64,000 bases of DNA from an uncultured Dongia sp. (GTDB lineage Bacteria; Pseudomonadota; Alphaproteobacteria; Dongiales; Dongiaceae): contig NZ_CAKZGO010000024.1 in assembly GCF_936916975.1 (NCBI RefSeq), positions 1 through 64,000 of the forward strand. The letters run 5' to 3'. This document shows positions 41,721 to 50,929 of this stretch, piece after piece (within the stretch, counting starts at the first letter, position 1; each line of letters starts with the position of its first letter). The translations under genes were made by a program, and so were the position numbers. The notes under the pieces were generated by a model, which saw only the letters and a program-made list of their open reading frames with translations, was not told the DNA's origin and ran no database searches.

Positions 41721-42272
41721 ATGAGCTTGGTTGAAATCACCCCCAGCGCCTATGACGTCGACATCGCGCTGGTCTACGCAACGCCTCATAATCTCAGCGG
41801 TTCCGTCATCTATACCGACCCGGTCTGCTACCTGCATGAACGGGCGGCGGAGCTGCTGAAGAAGGCCGTGCATCTCGCCCAGCCACTGGGCTTGCGCATC
41901 AAGATCCTCGACGCCTTTCGCCCCTCGGAAGCGCAATGGTGCCTGTGGAACGCCTTGCCCGATCCCGAATTCGTGGCGGACCCACGGCGCGGCTCACCCC
42001 ACACCCGTGGTGTCGCCATCGATCTCACCTTGGTCGACGACAAAGGCGTCGAGCTTGAGATGGGCACGGGCTTCGACGAAGCCATCCCGCAATCCCATCA
42101 TGCCGCAACCGACATCCCGGTCATCGCCCAACGCAACCGCTTCACCTTGCTGGGGATCATGATGGCCGCGGGCTGGGACAATTATAAGAACGAGTGGTGG
42201 CACTACCAGATGTTCAACAGCCGCGACTATCCCCTCATCGAGCAAGCGCAGCTGCCCAAGCCGATGATGTAG
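41721..42272 (+). CDS. ddpX: D-alanyl-D-alanine dipeptidase (VanX/DdpX, peptidase M15D)
   Basis: 183 residues. Catalytic motifs of the family: ILDAFRPSEAQ (Arg), GSPHTRGVAIDLTLVD (SxHxxGxAxD zinc site), MGTGFDEA and NEWWHYQMF (ExxWH, catalytic Glu and zinc His). It would hydrolyse D-Ala-D-Ala, recycling cell-wall dipeptide. No VanR/S, VanH or VanA partner is present, so a vancomycin-resistance role is not indicated. It stands at the left edge of the accessory-looking stretch. Confidence 0.93.
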   Translation: MSLVEITPSAYDVDIALVYATPHNLSGSVIYTDPVCYLHERAAELLKKAVHLAQPLGLRIKILDAFRPSEAQWCLWNALPDPEFVADPRRGSPHTRGVAIDLTLVDDKGVELEMGTGFDEAIPQSHHAATDIPVIAQRNRFTLLGIMMAAGWDNYKNEWWHYQMFNSRDYPLIEQAQLPKPMM

Positions 42273-42319
42273 CGGCCCAACCCGGCGCGGTGGTATTTTT
42301 TCAAGTCTTGCGATGAATA

Positions 42320-42526
42320 CGGATCGGCGAGATTGTCAGTGCCGTGACTGCTGCAGCAACGGAACTTCAATCGACGTCACCGGGCCTGCAGGCGGCCGCC
42401 GGCACCAGCGAAGTTGCCAACGACATCCATGGTGTCACCGAGGCATCGCAGCAGACCAGCGCCGGCTCGACCCAGGTGCTGACGGCTGCCAACGAACTCG
42501 CCGAGAACGACGCCAAGCTCAAACGG
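42320..42526 (+). pseudogene. Chemoreceptor remnant (fused start and end of a signalling domain)
   Basis: The frame reads RIGEIVSAVTAAATELQSTS, the usual beginning of an MCP signalling domain, then jumps directly to EVANDIHGVTEASQQTSAGS and QVLTAANELAENDAKLKR, its usual end. The ~200-residue middle, including the conserved tip, is missing, and the expected EVDRFL ending is replaced. After it a 14-bp unit TGCATGGCTGGGCG is repeated twice (42571-42598). No intact start or sensor part precedes it. Confidence 0.75.
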
Positions 42527-42602
42527 GTTCCTGTACACGGTGCGGAGCCCATAGGGGCGCGTGGCCGGTGTGCATGGCTGGGCGTGCATGGCTGGGCGGC
42601 GC

Positions 42603-43340
42603 TCAGGGTTCCGGTGTACCGGTCAAAGGCTGGCATTCCGTCTTCAGGACGTCGGGATAGAGATCGATGCCGCGCATCATGAATTTGAGGCGCAGGCCAT
42701 AGGACGTGATCTTGCACTCGCTGATGCTGAGCGGCACGGCGGCTGCGACATAGTCGGGGTAGAACAGGCCATAGCCATTCACCAGCGACCACAATTCGTT
42801 GAACAGCGTGGCGCGGATGCGGAAATAGAAGCTGTTCTCATCGGTGCAGGGCAGGGCATGGCAGCCCTGGACCGAGTGAACGTTCTCTTCCGGCAGGATC
42901 TCCTGGGAGTTCGTCAGATAGACGATTTCGTCGCGTTTGACGGTGGCGAAGTAGAGGCCGACATCGACGGCTAAGCCCAGCAGCGGCAGCAGGGCGAACC
43001 ACAGGAACAACAGGGTCGTGGTCAGCAACAGGCCGGCGCGGGTCTTTGAAAACTGCCGCTGCTTGAACTTGTCTTCGACATAGACAAGGCGGGCCCAAAG
43101 CCTCCGATACCAGCCGAACAGGAAATTGAGCGGCACAGCGAAGAACCCGGCCGTGGGCCGCAAGATGGTCTCATAGATCCAGATCGCCGCGACGACCACC
43201 TGGGCGATGAAGCGGCCAAAGGCGGTGAGGTCCTTGGCTGTCTTGACCTGCCACTGCCCCGCCTCTGCCCGCTCGGCCTCATAGGCGCGGTCCTCGATGC
43301 GTCGCTTCAGGCTGTCGACTTGCTTCTGCAGGTCGCTCAT
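42603..43340 (-). CDS. Unrecognised two-pass membrane protein with cytoplasmic coiled coil
   Basis: 245 residues. An N-terminal coiled coil (LQKQVDSLKRRIEDRAYEAE) is followed by hydrophobic segments at about 44-75 (FIAQVVVAAIWIYETIL) and 103-132 (LLLTTTLLFLWFALLPLLGL). The C-terminal ~110 residues have four cysteines (CHALPC, SECKI, KTECQ), suggesting disulfides in the periplasm. No family recognised. The ATG overlaps the stop of the Clp-like ATPase gene (ATGA), so it is the third gene of that operon and a likely membrane anchor or target (inference). Confidence 0.75.
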   Translation of the reverse strand: MSDLQKQVDSLKRRIEDRAYEAERAEAGQWQVKTAKDLTAFGRFIAQVVVAAIWIYETILRPTAGFFAVPLNFLFGWYRRLWARLVYVEDKFKQRQFSKTRAGLLLTTTLLFLWFALLPLLGLAVDVGLYFATVKRDEIVYLTNSQEILPEENVHSVQGCHALPCTDENSFYFRIRATLFNELWSLVNGYGLFYPDYVAAAVPLSISECKITSYGLRLKFMMRGIDLYPDVLKTECQPLTGTPEP

Positions 43341-45532
43341 CGGCTAGCTGCCTTTACCTTCTCATCCGGGTTGCTCCGCTTCACCTCGAAGCTCTGCGTC
43401 TCGGGCTTGTAGTGCAGATAGACCTCACCGCTGGCGCTGCCATCCAGGATCATGTTGACGATGATCGGCTCGACATTGGTCTGGATGAAGCCGGGCAGGC
43501 CGCGGGCGCCGATCGCCGGATCGTAATGCGCCTCGCAGAACGCCTTGAGATCGGCATCCGAGATACGGATGTGGAGGCCGTCCTGGCTGTAGGTGCGGTC
43601 CATGCCGTCGAATTCGCGCCGCACGATCTTCTCGATCGACGGCAGATCCAGGCGGTTGAAGCAGACGATGTTTTGGCGGCCCGCAAAGCGGTTGAGGAAC
43701 TCCGACCGATAGGTCTTGCCGACATCCTCCTGGGCGGCCGCACTGGCCTCGGCGAAGGTCATCGACCGGTCGAGGAAATGCGGCTGCCCGATATTCGTCG
43801 TCATGATGATGATCGATTCCGAGAACGACACGGTCCGGCCGACATTGTCGGTGAGCCGCCCGTCGGACAGGATCTGCAGGAACACGTTGAAGACGTCGGG
43901 ATGCGCCTTCTCGATCTCGTCGAACAGCAGGACGCGGATCGGGTTCTTGCGCATGGCGTTGGTCAGGATGCCGCCGGCCTCGAAACCTTCATAGCCAGGG
44001 GGTGCGCCGATGAGCCGCGAGACGGCATGCTTCTCCATGTATTCGGACATGTCGAAGCGGGTGAGCGCTTTTTCATCGTCCAGCAGCGCCTCGGCCAGAG
44101 CCTTGGCGATCTCCGTCTTGCCGACACCGGACGGTCCCATGAACATGAACGCTGCCTGCGGTTTTTCGTTGTTGCGCCGGCCGACCCGCGCCGTCTTCAC
44201 CGCATTGGCAAGCTGCGCCACGACGTGATCCTGCCCGAAGATCCGCTTCTTCAGGCCAGCTTCGAGATTGCGCAGCTTTTCCCGCTCATTCTCATTGAGC
44301 TTGCTGGCCGAGATGCCGGATATATCGGCGAATTCCTGCAGGACGATGTCGCGGGTGAGTTCGAGATGGCTGTTGATCTCCGATGTCAGGGTATCGAAGG
44401 CCGTCTTGTTCTTGGCCAGCTCCACCTGATACTTCGCGATCTGCTCCTTGATGGTGCGGACGGCTTCCGATTCGAAGCCGGCGCCGCTGCTCAGACGCGC
44501 AAAGGCGGCGATGCGGCCGGTGCTGGCCTGCGGCGGCGCATTGCCGGTATCGGTGTTGGCGGCGCGGTTCTTCTGCTCATCAAGGAGCTGTGTCGCCAGC
44601 TGCTCTTCCAGTTCCAGGATCGCGGTCTCGCCGTCGCGCTGGCGCTTGTAGAGCACGCGGATCTTTTCCTGCTTCTCGTGCCAGACAGCGCTGACCGCCG
44701 CGATCTCGGCATCCGCTGCGGCGATCTCGGTGGGCGATTTTGCGAGAGCGCGGCGGGTTTCCAAGGCCGCCAGACCAGGCGCCACACCATGGGCGTTGAG
44801 GCGATAGGTCGACAAGGCCCGGTCGAGCAGATTGCTGCTGCGTTCCGGCTGCGCCCGGTTGATGCCGCCGTCGCGCGAGCGGTATTTGCTGGTGAGCTCG
44901 ATGGCCGAGTCCACGGCTTCCGGCGCGATGCGGATCTTGTGAAAGGCGTGCAGCTGGACAGCGCTGTCCTTGACGATCTCATGGAGATCGTCGCCGACCG
45001 GTTCCTCAAGATCGATGAAGGTGAACAGCTCGCGAATGTCGGAATGGCTTTTGAGGATCAGGTCGAGATCCTCGTCGCGCGCCTCGATGATGGCCTGGGT
45101 CTTGCCCGATTTGATGGCAAGCGTCAGCGCATTAATGATATGGGTCGACCCGTTGTTGCGCGCTGCCTCGATGAGGTCGCGCATATCCTCGATGATCAGC
45201 ACGGATTCCGGCGTCCGATAGAGCGTCTTGACGATGCGGTCGATCGATTCATTGATCTTGCCGCCATCGCCCTGGCTGAACAGGGCGTCCGTATCCAGCC
45301 AGAACAGGCGTTTCGAGACGATGTCGAAGGGCGTGTTGGGGTTCTGCTTGCTGGCCTGCAGGCCGAGGCACAGCGCCGAACACCCAACGCCGCCTGGACC
45401 GACCAGCAGGACGGAGTTCGCCTTGCTGCGCACCAGGATGGCAGACAACCGTTTCAGTTCCTTGTCGCGGCCGACGAGCTTAAACTGCGGCGTCCGCGCA
45501 AGATACTCGTCGCCTCTGATGAGATGGTTCAT
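43337..45532 (-). CDS. Clp/Hsp100-like double AAA+ ATPase with degenerate first Walker A
   Basis: 731 residues from the ATG at 45532; an ATG at 45586 lies inside a hairpin and is less likely. The first AAA+ domain follows the N-terminus directly, with no Clp_N domain. Its Walker A is GPGGVGCS (Cys51 in place of the essential Lys), with Walker B VLIIEDMRD. A coiled-coil middle region (about 270-440) recalls ClpB. The second AAA+ domain is intact: GPSGVGKTE (Lys472), RVLLFDEIEKAHPDVFN, then GRTVSFSESIIIMTTNIG and a D2-small domain. It is probably a protein remodeller powered by D2 alone, serving its operon partners (inference). Confidence 0.88.
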   Translation of the reverse strand: MNHLIRGDEYLARTPQFKLVGRDKELKRLSAILVRSKANSVLLVGPGGVGCSALCLGLQASKQNPNTPFDIVSKRLFWLDTDALFSQGDGGKINESIDRIVKTLYRTPESVLIIEDMRDLIEAARNNGSTHIINALTLAIKSGKTQAIIEARDEDLDLILKSHSDIRELFTFIDLEEPVGDDLHEIVKDSAVQLHAFHKIRIAPEAVDSAIELTSKYRSRDGGINRAQPERSSNLLDRALSTYRLNAHGVAPGLAALETRRALAKSPTEIAAADAEIAAVSAVWHEKQEKIRVLYKRQRDGETAILELEEQLATQLLDEQKNRAANTDTGNAPPQASTGRIAAFARLSSGAGFESEAVRTIKEQIAKYQVELAKNKTAFDTLTSEINSHLELTRDIVLQEFADISGISASKLNENEREKLRNLEAGLKKRIFGQDHVVAQLANAVKTARVGRRNNEKPQAAFMFMGPSGVGKTEIAKALAEALLDDEKALTRFDMSEYMEKHAVSRLIGAPPGYEGFEAGGILTNAMRKNPIRVLLFDEIEKAHPDVFNVFLQILSDGRLTDNVGRTVSFSESIIIMTTNIGQPHFLDRSMTFAEASAAAQEDVGKTYRSEFLNRFAGRQNIVCFNRLDLPSIEKIVRREFDGMDRTYSQDGLHIRISDADLKAFCEAHYDPAIGARGLPGFIQTNVEPIIVNMILDGSASGEVYLHYKPETQSFEVKRSNPDEKVKAASR

Positions 45533-45570
45533 GCGTGATTCCCGACTCGCTTTTACCGATAGAGGGAGAT

Positions 45571-45596
45571 CCGGAGCGGCTTCCATGCCGCTCCGG
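45571..45596 (-). other. Perfect intercistronic hairpin
   Basis: CCGGAGCGGC / GCCGCTCCGG, a ten-pair stem with a six-base loop, lies 14 bases after the coiled-coil gene stop and before the Clp-like gene start. There is no T-run, so a processing, stabilising or partial-attenuation role is more likely than simple termination. Confidence 0.8.
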
Positions 45597-45609
45597 TAAG
45601 GTCATCGGA

Positions 45610-47295
45610 TCAGTTACCGCCAAACTTGAACGGCGAGGTCCCACCCGCAGCCGGTGCGGCAGCATTGGTCGATTCCGGCTTGTTGCCGGCGATGTCGGCA
45701 TTGGCGGCGATCGAATCCTTGACGTCGCCCTGCACGACCTCGGTCAGCTTCTTCAGCTCGTCGAGCTTGCTGCGCATTTCGGTCAAGCCCTCCTTGGTGA
45801 TGCTGGTCGCCGCGCGCACCACTTCACCATAGGAGCCGAGATCGTCGATCGCCTTGGCAAGGTCGGTGTTCTGCTCCCCGATCCCCATGGCGATGCGGAT
45901 GCTCTCCTTCTGCGCCACCTTGTTGGTGTTGTCGGCCATCAGCTGCAAGGTGTCCTTGGCCATGGCGGATGCTTCGCCAAGGGCGGCCGAGGAGACCGCC
46001 TGCAGCACGACCGAGAGCCGGTCGGCCACGCCGGAAATGCCCTGGCTGTGCATGGTGCGGGCGCGGATCGACTGCTGGTCGACCGCATCCTTCATGGTCT
46101 TGATGCGGATGGCGCCGGAGGTGAGGTCGGCATAGGTCGCCATGGTGTCGACGGCCGAGGCGTCGAGCAGGGTCATATGCTGCTCGACCGCCATGCGCTT
46201 CTGATCGCGCGTCATCTTGGCGATGGTGTCTTCTTCCGCGCCGGTGTCCTGCAGCGTATCGCGCAGTTTCAGATTGTCGCTGCCGGCGGATTTGATGCCT
46301 TCGTTCATGATGGCATATATCGTGCCCATGACATTGTTGGCATCCGCCAGGTTTTCCACCTGGTCGCCCATCTTGCCGAGATGCTGGCGGACGGCACCGA
46401 CCCGGGTCTTTGCCGTGTTGACGAAGTTGAGCGCCGAATCGACCAGATCGCGTTGGCGCTGCTTGTGATCATCCGTGCTGATGTCGAGCAATTCGCGCAG
46501 CTTCTTCTTTTGCTCCGCGAACTCGCCCATCTTGCTTTCATCGGGCACCTGCGCGTCGAGGGCGGCGATCTCGGTCCCCAGCGTGGTCAGGCGCTCGGCG
46601 ATATTGGTCAGATCAAGATCGTTCCTGGCGATCTGCTGGCGCGCTTCCTCGGTCGTGCCGCCGAAGCCGAAGAAGGACTTCTTCTCCGCCAGCGCGACAT
46701 TGTCCTGCTGCAGCGAGTTGGTGCGCGCCGTAAGGCCGGCCAGTTCCAGCTTCTTTTCCTCGCGCGACTTGTGGAGTTCCTCCTCGCGCTTGCGGTCGCG
46801 AATAATCTCCTGGAACGCCTCGACTGTCATGCCGTTGGTGCGCAGGGTATAGACCGCGTCGATGATGTCGGTCAGCGGTCGCATCTTGTTGTCGAACTCG
46901 ATCAGCGAGGTGTTGAGGTCGTCATAGACCATCTTCAGTTCGGCAAAGGTCTCGGTGTCGGTCAGGCGGATGATTTCCTGTGCCATCGCCTCGCGTTGCG
47001 ATTGCAGGTATTCCTTGAACAGCTCGAATTCCTTGATCCGTTCGCGGTTCTGTTCCTTGGTGCCCTCGAAGGTCAGCATCTTTGCGACCAGCGATTTCTT
47101 CTCCTCGGGCCGCGATTCCTCCGCGAACATCACCTTGTAGAAGGCGTTCGACTGGATGCTGGCAAAGCGCGCATCCTCTGCCGGCGCTGACGTCTTGGCG
47201 GAGGCCGCCGTGCCGGCGCGCTGGCGCACCGCCTCGGTCATCACCTCGGCGCTGGCCTTCTTGCTGCTGTATTTCGCGCTGCCACCCGTGCTCAT
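45610..47295 (-). CDS. Unrecognised long coiled-coil protein, first gene of the Clp-like operon
   Basis: 561 residues from the ATG at 47295, preceded by GGAG at six bases; the longer frame upstream is not coding-like. It is almost wholly helical, without membrane segments or signal peptide. Coiled-coil stretches include KREEELHKSREEKKLELAGL and the C-terminal MRSKLDELKKLTEVVQGDV. A glycine-rich break (KKSFFGFGGTTEEA) precedes the second half. The tail (TNAAAPAAGGTSPFKFGGN) is low-complexity and could be a flexible recruitment tag. No family is recognised; it is probably a scaffold or substrate of the ATPase. Confidence 0.78.
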   Translation of the reverse strand: MSTGGSAKYSSKKASAEVMTEAVRQRAGTAASAKTSAPAEDARFASIQSNAFYKVMFAEESRPEEKKSLVAKMLTFEGTKEQNRERIKEFELFKEYLQSQREAMAQEIIRLTDTETFAELKMVYDDLNTSLIEFDNKMRPLTDIIDAVYTLRTNGMTVEAFQEIIRDRKREEELHKSREEKKLELAGLTARTNSLQQDNVALAEKKSFFGFGGTTEEARQQIARNDLDLTNIAERLTTLGTEIAALDAQVPDESKMGEFAEQKKKLRELLDISTDDHKQRQRDLVDSALNFVNTAKTRVGAVRQHLGKMGDQVENLADANNVMGTIYAIMNEGIKSAGSDNLKLRDTLQDTGAEEDTIAKMTRDQKRMAVEQHMTLLDASAVDTMATYADLTSGAIRIKTMKDAVDQQSIRARTMHSQGISGVADRLSVVLQAVSSAALGEASAMAKDTLQLMADNTNKVAQKESIRIAMGIGEQNTDLAKAIDDLGSYGEVVRAATSITKEGLTEMRSKLDELKKLTEVVQGDVKDSIAANADIAGNKPESTNAAAPAAGGTSPFKFGGN

Positions 47296-47497
47296 TCTGG
47301 TCTCCATTTTCTTCAAGTACTTGTTTAAGCGTGAAATTATGATCAGTTCCAGCCACGGCTCGCAATCCGCGCAACGGCCAGGCCGACCCCACTGCCGCCG
47401 CACACAATAGCCAAGCTTGCGCACAATTGTAGGCAGCTATCCGACCAAATTCCAAAGATAGTTGCGTGGCGACGCTCGGAAATCCGATGTCCGGATG

Positions 47498-47529
47498 CAA
47501 AACGGGCCGATCCTTTCGGACCGGCCCGT
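47498..47529 (-). terminator. Rho-independent terminator of the PAS chemoreceptor gene
   Basis: On the minus strand ACGGGCCG...CGGCCCGT (47502-47529) is followed by TTTT (47501-47498). It lies 37 bp past the chemoreceptor stop at 47566. Confidence 0.75.
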
Positions 47530-47565
47530 ACGTCTCTGCGATATGACTTTGGGGTGGGGCGTCGA

Positions 47566-49047
47566 TCAGGCCGTCAGGGCGTGGGACGCTTCCTTCACCT
47601 TCTTGGTCGATTCATTGGCTGATTTGGTTGCTGCGGCGATGGCGACGATGCTGTCGCTGATCGATTTCACGCCATCCGCCGTCGTGTGCAGATTGGCGGA
47701 AATCTCGCGGCTGACGGTGTTCTGTTCCTCGGATGCCGCGGCGATGGCCTCGGAAATGCCGTCCATCTTGGAGATGATCTCGGAGATGAGGGCGATGGCA
47801 CCCACGGCCTTTTCAGTGGCGCTCTGGACCTGCGACACCTGCTCCGAAATCTCATCCGTCGCCCGGGCGGTTTGCGTGGCGAGACTCTTCACCTCATTGG
47901 CGACGACAGAGAAGCCTTTGCCGGCGTCCCCGGCGCGCGCTGCTTCAATGGTCGCGTTGAGCGCCAGCAGGTTGGTCTGCGAGGCAATATTGGTGATCAG
48001 ATTGACGACTTCGCCGATCTTGTTGGCAGCACCGGCGAGGCCGGCGACGACATTGCTCGTCTCCTGCGCCTGCGTCACCGCTTCGTGCGACACGTTGGAG
48101 GCATTTGTCGTCTGCCGCCCGATCTCACTGATCGACGCCACCAACTCCTCGGCACCCGCCGCGATCGCCTGTACCTTGTCTGTGGCTTCCGCTGAAGCGG
48201 CGGCGGCACTGGCGACCTGTTCATTGACCGTCGAGATGGCCATGGTCACGCTGCCCAGATCATCATCGACATGCTTGCCGATTTCGGCGCGACGCTGGCG
48301 ATCCCGCACGACTTGGGTGATGTCGGAGGCGTATTTGACGACTTTGAACGGCTTGCCGGTGAAATCGAAGATCGGGTTGTAGGACGCCTGAAGCCATAAT
48401 TCCTCGCCGCGCTTGTTGATGCGATGGAATTCGCCGGCCTGATAGTCACCGGCATTGAGCTTTGCCCAGAATTGCTTGTACTCGGCGCTGTTGCGATAAG
48501 CCGGATCGACAAACATGCTGTGATGCTTGCCCTTCACCTCATCCAGCGAATAGCCGACGGCGTTCAGAAAGTTCGCGTTGGCGGTGATGATCGTGCCGTC
48601 GAGATTGAATTGAATGACTGCCTGCGATTTGCCGATCGCGGCGATCTGGCTTTCATAATCGGCCGCCTGGGTCTTCGCAGCCGTGATGTCAGTAGCGAAT
48701 TTGACAACTTTATAAGGCTTACCAGCGCGATCCAGGATGGGATTGTAGGATGCCTGAATCCAGACCGGGCGACCGCCTTTTCCAAAGCGAAGATATTCGG
48801 CCGATTGGAATTGCCCAGCATTCAGATTGGCCCAGAAGGTGCGGTACTCCACACTCGATTTGTATTCCGGGTCGACGAAGATGCTGTGATGCTTGCCCTG
48901 TATGTCGGCCAGCGTGTAGCCCATGGCCTTCAGAAAATTTTCATTGGCCGTGATGATTGTGCCGTCTGTCTTGAATTCGATGACGGCCTGAGAGGCATCA
49001 ATCGCCTTCAACTTTGCCTTTAATTCGCTGTTTCCGCCAAACATCAT
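47566..49047 (-). CDS. Soluble chemoreceptor with two PAS domains
   Basis: 493 residues from ATG 49047 (or the adjacent ATG 49044, better spaced from GGAGG). Two similar PAS/PAC repeats follow ([19 protein letters not shown]...[14 protein letters not shown] and [19 protein letters not shown]...[14 protein letters not shown]), then a signalling domain with [20 protein letters not shown]. No membrane helix is present. Such tandem-PAS receptors sense cytoplasmic redox or ligands, often through a bound cofactor. The two PAS units are close relatives, pointing to an internal duplication. It is upstream of, and on the same strand as, the Clp-like operon but separated by a terminator. Confidence 0.94.
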
Positions 49048-49276
49048 GCCCTCCGTTTGCCGGCTATTTTTGCTGAGCAATGCTTGCGCTCTAAAACTTG
49101 CGAACTCATTAACAGTAGTGACGTGGAACGTCTTTCTCGGATAAATTAGGAAGCTGAGGCTGCCATCCAGCAACGAAATCTTGGTCGTGGGCGACTATCG
49201 GCAGAGATGCCTAGTGCGCGGACTTTAATCCGACTTCAGCTTTAATCCGACTTTGGATTGAGCCGGTAGTGCAGCC

Positions 49277-50854
49277 TTAATCCTCGCGCCCATAGATAAA
49301 CCGCCGGGCAAGCCAGCAGCCGAGCTCTATGCCGGTGACGCGGTTCGCCGTGTCGCGGGTGAAGGCGAGGGTCCAGTCGCCGGGTGGGAAGTGATCGACG
49401 CCGCGCGGGCAGGGCATGACCCAGAGGTCGCGGCCGATCGGCTGCAGCATTTCCATGCGCCCGTCGCCGAGGATGCCGGCGCAGGCGCCATAGAATGCGC
49501 CGCCCGCATCGATGATGCTTAGCTCCGCGCCGAGATCCGCGCAGTGATAGCGGCCAGCAATATCCAGCATGGCTGTACCGTCATTGGGCACGAGCAGGGA
49601 CCGCTGGTTGTCCTGCGGCCGTTCGAGCCAAAGGCCTTCGGCGCTCGGGCGGATGCGCACGCCCGATTCCTCCTGCGTGGCCGAGCCGTCGGCCTGCAGC
49701 GTGAGTTCGTCAGGACCTGTTGCATAGCGCAGCAGGACGGTGCTCGGACCCGATCCTGGACCCGATTTGCTGAGGCGGACGGACAGGCCGGTTTCCGGCT
49801 CGAGATAGGTGCCGGTCCAGGCAGGTGCCGGCAGTTCGGCCGGGCCTTCCGGCTGCGCGATGCCGAAGATCGCAGCGATCAGCTCCTTGGCGGCGTCGCC
49901 GGGGCTGGCATTGTGGTTGAACAGCACGACGACCGAGAGCCGCTCCGAGGGCATATGGAGCCGTTGGCTGCGCCAGCCGCGCAAGGCGCCGCCATGGCGG
50001 GTGGTGGTACGCCCGAACATTGTCTCCCGCGCCAGGCCGAAGCCATAGGCGGCCGGGGCACCGTCACTGAACGTCACGGGTGCTGCGAGGCGCTGATAGA
50101 GGCTGTCCGGATCATCGCGGGTGGCGTCGATATGGGTTTCCCAGGCGATCATATCGTCGAGGCTGGCGCCGATCGAGGCATCGCCGCCCGCCCAGAACAT
50201 GCCATTGACGGCGGGCCGGAAGCCGCTGGCAACGTCGCCTTCATAGCCTTCGCCGCCATCGGGCATCGCGCGCGTGTCCGCGGCGATGAAGGCCGTGTCC
50301 ATGCCGACGGGATCGAAAATGCCGGCGCGCACCAGTTCGGCATAGCTGCGCCCATGTCTTGCCTCGAGAATGTCCGAGAGAATGCGGAAATTCTGGTTGG
50401 CATAGGAGTAGCGTGTGCCGGGCGTAAATTGCAGTGCGCGCGTGGCAGCGATGAGGCGCGCCGCTTCGCGATTGCCGAAGGAAGTTTCCGCGAGCGCGCC
50501 ATGGAGCATCGCCACCGCCCAGTAATCCTGCAGGCCGGATTGGTTGTGGCAAAGCTGGCGCGCTGTCGGTGCCTTATCTTTCAACAAGGGCAGGCGCGCG
50601 GTCACGTCGGCATCGAGCGCGGAAAGATCGGGAAAGGCATCCAGCATCAGGCCGCAGGTGAACTGCTTGGTAATCGAGCATATGCGGAACAGGGTCTGCG
50701 GCGTGAAGGGAATGCGCCGTTCGGCATTGGCCCAGCCCCAGGCATGGCGGACGATCGCCTTGCCGTCCTTGAGGACAGCCACCGCGCCACCGGGACCGAC
50801 ATAGCTTTGCGGCAGAGATTGGAGAACCCGATCAAGGCGGGCGGTCAGCGACAT
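49277..50854 (-). CDS. dap: D-aminopeptidase / class C beta-lactamase-like serine hydrolase (S12)
   Basis: 525 residues. The penicillin-binding fold has CSITKQFTC (SxxK), RYSYANQNF (YxN) and TTRHGGALRG (HxG). After ~330 residues come two beta-barrel-like domains (YLEPETGLSVRLSKSG, GRYHCADLGAELSIID), the layout of Ochrobactrum D-aminopeptidase. The enzyme would release N-terminal D-residues from peptides. No signal peptide is evident, consistent with a cytoplasmic location. Start ATG at 50854 follows AGGAAAA. A general esterase-like role remains possible. Confidence 0.85.
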   Translation of the reverse strand: MSLTARLDRVLQSLPQSYVGPGGAVAVLKDGKAIVRHAWGWANAERRIPFTPQTLFRICSITKQFTCGLMLDAFPDLSALDADVTARLPLLKDKAPTARQLCHNQSGLQDYWAVAMLHGALAETSFGNREAARLIAATRALQFTPGTRYSYANQNFRILSDILEARHGRSYAELVRAGIFDPVGMDTAFIAADTRAMPDGGEGYEGDVASGFRPAVNGMFWAGGDASIGASLDDMIAWETHIDATRDDPDSLYQRLAAPVTFSDGAPAAYGFGLARETMFGRTTTRHGGALRGWRSQRLHMPSERLSVVVLFNHNASPGDAAKELIAAIFGIAQPEGPAELPAPAWTGTYLEPETGLSVRLSKSGPGSGPSTVLLRYATGPDELTLQADGSATQEESGVRIRPSAEGLWLERPQDNQRSLLVPNDGTAMLDIAGRYHCADLGAELSIIDAGGAFYGACAGILGDGRMEMLQPIGRDLWVMPCPRGVDHFPPGDWTLAFTRDTANRVTGIELGCWLARRFIYGRED

Positions 50855-50892
50855 GGCGGTTTTCCTGATTGGCGGGATTGGTGTGGAAATGC

Positions 50893-50929
50893 TCAGGCGA
50901 TTCTACTCAGGCGATATTGGTCAGGCGAT
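50893..50929. repeat. Triple 14-bp-spaced repeat of the rutE-like gene end
   Basis: TCAGGCGAT occurs at 50893, 50907 and 50921. On the minus strand each copy reads ATCGCCTGA, which in the gene is Ile-Ala-stop. The last codons are thus repeated twice more beyond the stop. Confidence 0.85.

Follow-up and report, generated by a model that had tools for sequence, protein, structure and literature searches.

A trio of genes encoding a long helical protein (CC), a ClpB-like ATPase and a membrane protein (MEM) is chiefly a jumbo-phage module and is rare in bacterial chromosomes. In the window (the whole 64,000-nucleotide stretch of DNA analyzed here), ORF analysis places the trio on the minus strand in the order CC gene, ATPase gene, MEM gene (Table 1). 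Judging from sequence comparison, these are real genes inherited together as one unit. Every one of the 15 viral contigs that carry CC has the same genes in the same order and on the same strand, as do the other bacterial copies over the extent of their contigs, which upholds the view of the sequence-only reading that they form an unrecognized three-gene operon. We tentatively propose, with somewhat less than even confidence, that the trio is a membrane-tethered Hsp100 remodeling machine of jumbo phages, probably acquired and retained by an alphaproteobacterial lineage. Its probable action is to remodel a protein assembly located at the inner membrane. The part of this proposal that is read from sequence is that the trio is one unit and that its ATPase has kept the motor motifs of its D2 ring, lost those of D1 and lacks an N-domain. 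A literature search found no description of the trio.

Gene layout and occurrence in viruses

The ATPase and MEM genes overlap by ATGA (43340-43337), as had been claimed. The claimed gap of 77 bp between the CC and ATPase genes holds for an ATPase start at 45532, and becomes 23 bp if translation begins at an ATG 54 bases further upstream (45586). The Met at 45532 aligns with the start chosen for relatives, whereas a GGAG precedes the upstream ATG and the shorter gap is closer to the 24-25 bp found in three bacterial relatives; both starts therefore stay candidates. Long ORFs of 708 aa (43412-45538, plus strand) and 551 aa (45535-47190, plus strand) lie opposite the ATPase and CC genes and are probably by-products of high GC content. 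Searches of Pfam, NCBIfam and PADLOC gave matches above cut-off, or otherwise noteworthy, for the ATPase alone. For CC (two sub-threshold Pfam matches) and MEM, no family scored above cut-off in these three collections, in agreement with the sequence-only reading, which recognized no family for either protein.

Table 1. Coordinates of the trio genes and of the features discussed in the text
Feature	Position in window	Strand	Basis or remark
Helical ("coiled-coil") protein CC, 561 aa	45610-47295	-	ORF; 21 members aligned
ClpB-like ATPase, 731 aa	43337-45532	-	ORF and profile matches
ATPase from alternative upstream ATG, 749 aa	43337-45586	-	ORF
Membrane protein MEM, 245 aa	42603-43340	-	ORF; 19 members aligned; no family matched
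Degenerate D1 Walker A, GPGGVGCSA (Lys to Cys)	45374-45400	-	Alignment
Intact D2 Walker A, GPSGVGKT	44114-44137	-	Alignment
CC, most hydrophobic 19-residue stretch, residues 427-445	45961-46017	-	Overlaps most conserved block (421-440)
CC, C-terminal tail motif SPFKF, F556 invariant	45622-45636	-	Alignment
CC, weakly TelA-aligned stretch, residues 291-529	45709-46425	-	hhalign
MEM, strong hydrophobic (transmembrane) segment, residues 110-128	42957-43013	-	Present in 10/10 members examined
MEM, C-terminal OB-fold-like domain, residues 131-240	42621-42950	-	Predicted structure comparison

Using tblastn, CC was detected in two of 50,697 phage records, both of them Agrobacterium jumbo phage Atu_ph07, which also encodes an ATPase (gp492) 52% identical to that of the window and a MEM (44%). 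The gp492 protein has been named ClpB, one of seven Clp-like proteins of the phage, and the accessible part of that report does not discuss its CC and MEM neighbors (PMC6102473).

A scan of viral sequences with the CC of the window alone found no relative, and profile scans of IMG/VR yielded 15 distinct CC contigs of 24-608 kb. This set includes Atu_ph07, its IMG/VR copy being counted once, and two contigs first found via MEM. CC, ATPase and MEM occur in the same order and on the same strand in 15/15, a count that includes a contig ending inside MEM (L084) and is partly non-independent because L082 and L083 are near-copies. The neighborhood search proposed by the sequence-only reading found that the triplet recurs wherever CC is found in viral contigs. 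The second CC profile scan contributed ten of the 15 contigs as new, with the trio in all ten (L084's MEM being cut), and searching with D1 of the ATPase alone returned 14 contigs, every one within the 15. Six of the seven contigs from a MEM scan were likewise among them; the other is a 40-kb contig starting inside the ATPase gene (L089, cut inside the ATPase, was excluded from the 15). No orphan trio genes were found in the CC, D1 and MEM scans of viral sequences, although orphans may be missed because the scan patterns were built from known members and the CC-only scan found no viral relative. In Atu_ph07, L021 and L077, 1.1-2.6 kb separates two of the trio genes, indicating that the genes need not be packed into a tight operon. 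Between CC and the ATPase, the L021 contig has a 402-aa ORF (L021:9635-10843, plus strand) that matches phrog_31813 only weakly (E 0.00066). Terminase (PF03237) was present in 3/5 and 6/11 of the virus records searched, and the seven without it are all shorter than 125 kb. A comparison of neighbors at 20 loci, in which greedy ORF picking swapped CC for a longer antisense ORF in three, found no further family common to more than five loci. Jumbo phages have hundreds of genes of unknown purpose, and the trio gives some of these unassigned genes a defined three-protein set, together wherever found. This phage habitat, like the loss of the D1 catalytic residues and the probable periplasmic domain of MEM described below, had escaped the sequence-only reading.

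Bacterial copies and their descent

The bacterial carriers are the window genome, one congener and four other genomes. When 84,980 species genomes were searched with a pattern-based method, five loci were identified, in Taklimakanibacter lacteus, an Aestuariivirga, a Rhizobiales bacterium and two MAGs. The trio was found in 2/17 genomes of the window's order, both in its genus (2/7), and in 1/385 genomes of the class and 1/398 of the phylum, the window's own genome each time. Two contig entries, L012 (one of the five loci) and G007:C299 (congener), are equally long (23,832) and were taken as one contig. As far as the contigs extend, the other bacterial copies have the same genes, order and strand. 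With tblastn, none of 72,556 plasmid records was found to contain CC.

In the window's genus, the trio occupies a variable slot between genes for an M15 dipeptidase and a nitroreductase (window 42270-50923; counterparts in G002-G006, L062-L066). The slot is empty in G005, where no more than 5 bases separate the aligned flanks, and is occupied by other genes in G002, G003, G004 and G006; the contig of the congener stops before it. A prophage or plasmid origin of the window copy was rejected, since no phage family was found among ten neighbors scanned, there was no plasmid match and the GC content (0.60-0.62) is close to that of the surroundings (0.63). Just downstream of the trio (42317-42526, plus strand) lies a remnant of a methyl-accepting chemotaxis protein, an internally deleted C-terminal signaling part, which is a sign of past rearrangement. 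It was recognized by eye against a 705-aa receptor-like frame of the same genome (G000:C4, locus L093), with a DNA match too; tblastn with the neighboring receptor of the window did not find it. A beta-lactamase/D-aminopeptidase domain-B protein is encoded at 49277-50854 (minus strand) near the D-Ala-D-Ala dipeptidase gene, so that two D-peptide enzymes lie in one neighborhood.

The habitat in phages, the patchy distribution within the genus, the variable accessory slot and the presence of a membrane protein would all suit an anti-phage or superinfection-exclusion system, used by phages against competitors and by bacteria for defense. The ATPase also matches PADLOC models of the candidate defense system PDC-M37B (E 1.2e-39) and of DolB (E 1.6e-26). 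However, these matches are limited to about 180 residues of the D2 AAA domain and PADLOC matches neither CC nor MEM, for which reason the PADLOC anti-phage systems were rejected as assignments. In addition, the ten scanned neighbors are ordinary enzymes, regulators and one receptor, and the Taklimakanibacter, Aestuariivirga and Rhizobiales copies (three Hyphomicrobiales genomes) have upstream surroundings in common, unlike a fast-moving defense island. We therefore regard a defense role as unlikely.

Phylogenetic trees place the bacterial copies in one clade among long phage lineages, both for the ATPase (4 rows, support 99/100) and for CC (6 rows, support 100/99). This pattern suggests that the trio was likely captured from a phage in a single event by an alphaproteobacterial lineage that kept it, a history that is likely rather than proven because the outgroup attaches to the ATPase tree at an unresolved fork. 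The dN/dS values of the closest bacterial pair are 0.03 for CC, 0.06 for the ATPase and 0.14 for MEM, and those of the window against L011 are 0.27-0.41. Such low values indicate purifying selection and hence that the trio is kept for a function in bacteria, where it can be studied outside the phage. Against this stands L014, a MAG contig of 2.5-fold coverage in which the ATPase lies in two frames (L014:1659-3808), due either to sequencing error or to decay.

The three proteins

Profile matches confirm that a Clp-like (Hsp100) ATPase is encoded beside the helical and membrane proteins. The ClpB match spans D1 to the end of the protein, starting at residue 37 of the 749-aa form and at profile position 175; because it begins past the N-domain, this domain is absent. 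An insert of varying length separates the two rings, at the position of the M-domain in ClpB. Nineteen ATPases were compared, with L014 (two frames) and L012 (cut) excluded. The Walker A Lys of D1 is missing in 19/19, with Cys, Arg, Val, Ala, Thr or Ile in its place, and the Walker B Asp-Glu of D1 is present in 0/19. In contrast, both Walker motifs of D2 are intact in 19/19, and the D2 pore loop retains Tyr or Phe. The known ClpP-docking loop motif was not seen in the nine members inspected, and membership among the ClpA/ClpC protease unfoldases was rejected on these grounds. Given what Walker and pore-loop motifs are known to mean for ATPase function, the conservation pattern reads as that of an unfoldase with one working ring (D2) and no protease; D1 might still bind nucleotide. 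An Hsp100 with a permanently disabled ring would offer a natural test of the role of D1 beyond ATP hydrolysis. The ATPase also matches phrog_4871 ("ATP-dependent protease"), the phage Clp family of the PHROG library.

The span of the ClpB-type match and the insert at the M-domain position could mean that the trio is simply a disaggregase operon, in which a ClpB variant clears aggregates and CC is an adaptor. The absence of an N-domain, the loss of the D1 motifs in every member and the varying length of the inter-ring insert argue against this. So do the linkage of the ATPase to CC and MEM wherever it is found and the fact that the window genome encodes other AAA_2 proteins. The score against the ClpB equivalog TIGR03346 (406.7 bits vs a cut-off of 1232.1) is likewise far too low for the ClpB disaggregases, membership in which was rejected on this score and, judged by sequence, on the missing N-domain and D1 motifs. 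We regard an ordinary disaggregase operon as very unlikely.

The AlphaFold model of CC, which like that of MEM is of intermediate confidence, consists of nearly all long helices (mean pLDDT 68.8, pTM 0.45). The protein is acidic (net charge -12 to -22), and its hydrophobic peak begins at residue 405-427 in 21/21 members. All 21 also have a Phe in the C-terminal tail, behind a variable, unconserved linker that follows the last helix. It is usually preceded by Pro (by Ala in two members and by Ser in one), and as a rule one of the next three residues is aliphatic or aromatic. Pro/Ala-Phe occurs in 30% of shuffled CC tails, so that the argument for the tail rests on its fixed position and on the invariant Phe. 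Unfoldases usually grip disordered termini, and we therefore read the tail as a putative handle for the motor. The earlier suggestion that the helical protein is the substrate of the motor thereby gains a possible point of attachment, although the partner bound by the tail could instead be MEM or another molecule. Structural matches to STAT, CorA and tripartite pore-forming toxins (VIA Z to 12.4) were rejected because such scores are common for long helices, and hits to PDB chains obtained with the CC profile (best E 0.0078) covered short stretches only and were disregarded.

A TelA-like string spotted by eye in CC was the beginning of another possible link, namely that CC may be a very remote relative of TelA. 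Using 21 CC and 25 TelA sequences (7 phage TelAs included), hhalign aligned full-length CC with TelA over 215 collinear columns (probability 10.6%, P 0.0029), with a score of 32.3, whereas none of 100 block shuffles scored above 28.5. The C-terminal half of CC, which was chosen after a first look at the data, gave a probability of 21% (P 0.001) and a score of 32.1 vs 28.2 at most in 100 block shuffles. Among the 50 matches listed for the CC model against viral structures (Foldseek), three are named as TelA-like, tellurite or toxic anion resistance proteins (E 0.0075, 0.028 and 0.053). TelA is present in 161 phage records, many of them from jumbo phages, and in three of the seven loci opened (L068-L074) the genes after it encode a second tellurium or vWA protein along with a membrane protein and one of the TerD type; the other four have no such gene set by annotation. 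What makes the lead interesting is that TelA is frequent in phage records and can adjoin proteins of these types. It would make the trio a stress-resistance module parallel to the phage Ter module, with CC as a diverged TelA, MEM standing for TerC and the Hsp100 replacing vWA/TerD. However, the hhalign probabilities are low, falling to about 1% or less in runs with 2 and then 18 TelA sequences (from 19 loci, L048 having given no usable ORF), and when 11 CC sequences were used, 3/100 shuffles beat the full-length score. The best whole-sequence E value from hmmsearch was 0.076, with no match in the reverse direction, and TelA (PF05816) was not among the 25 Pfam families listed, out of 29, for 11 members at E values up to 1. 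Helical proteins readily match one another, and the window genome has no match to TerD. A Ter-like role is, in our estimation, doubtful.

Nineteen MEM sequences were aligned, with L084 (cut) and L012 excluded. The description of MEM as a two-pass protein stands in part: the strong hydrophobic segment recurs in all members examined, but an earlier, weaker segment passes a mild threshold in only 5/10. The region between the segments is basic: residues 60-105 of the MEM encoded in the window include 9 Lys/Arg but 2 Asp/Glu. The predicted C-terminal domain (pTM of the AlphaFold MEM model, 0.52) most closely resembles a structure with a VIA Z score of 7.5 (3.1 Å over 89 residues), a value below the tool's caution level. 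The matches listed by VIA are mostly OB-fold proteins, and the best Foldseek match had an E value of only 0.15. Cys209 and Cys236 are invariant (19/19), while Cys160 and Cys165 are both present in 15/19 and both absent in 4/19, two of the four being near-copies. This paired presence and absence suggests two disulfides and therefore a periplasmic location for the domain, which is probable on sequence grounds; a basic region inside the cell fits this topology. Identification of MEM as CysZ/EI24 was rejected since just two of ten members matched (best E 8.5e-6) and the other eight did not.

Proposed mechanism and comparison with known systems

In the remodeling machine that we favor, MEM would span the inner membrane with a disulfide-bonded, OB-fold-like domain in the periplasm, and at its cytoplasmic face it would recruit both the ATPase and CC. 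The helical CC would act as a scaffold or form a polymer, and the D2 pore would grip it by the C-terminal tail that bears the Phe motif. ATP hydrolysis would then pull on CC and disassemble or reshape its assembly without proteolysis. The role in phages might be to shape or protect the host envelope during infection, which is the weakest step, and in bacteria the trio would serve the cell in the same way. A more specific version, drawn by analogy with ESCRT-III/Vps4, has CC forming a coat around MEM that is cyclically disassembled via its tail to remodel the host envelope, the machine having been captured once by bacteria for their own envelope; we consider this version quite unlikely. Several parts of the trio are open to direct tests: D1 without catalytic residues, the intact D2, the tail motif and the probable periplasmic domain.

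The sequence-only reading would have been refuted by profile hits assigning the trio to a known system such as type VI secretion or tellurite resistance, and no such hits were obtained. The window genome has 0 matches to the sheath protein VipB and 0 to TerD, and the ATPase scores 337.4 bits against the ClpV profile vs a cut-off of 884.95; membership in both systems was rejected accordingly. Comparison with these and other systems nevertheless brings out several likenesses. ClpB and Hsp104 likewise have two AAA domains, an inter-domain insert and an aromatic D2 pore loop, whereas the trio ATPase is without an N-domain and D1 catalytic residues and has CC and MEM as partners. ClpV (TssH) of type VI secretion is an Hsp100 motor acting on the VipA/VipB sheath, and the likeness lies in such a motor having a partner for disassembly encoded beside it, as proposed for the trio. 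The phage Ter module (TelA, vWA, TerC, TerD) shares the jumbo-phage habitat, a long helical and a membrane protein and the weak CC-TelA alignment, but it is the trio that has an Hsp100 motor, in a genome with no match to TerD. In the Vps4/ESCRT-III system, an AAA motor acts on a client that is helical, linked to the membrane and equipped with a tail motif at its C-terminus; this is a likeness by analogy, with no sequence relation claimed, the trio motor being an Hsp100 and MEM having no counterpart there. The combination of parts in the trio matched no system tested, while an Hsp100 motor with a dedicated client is a known kind of system.
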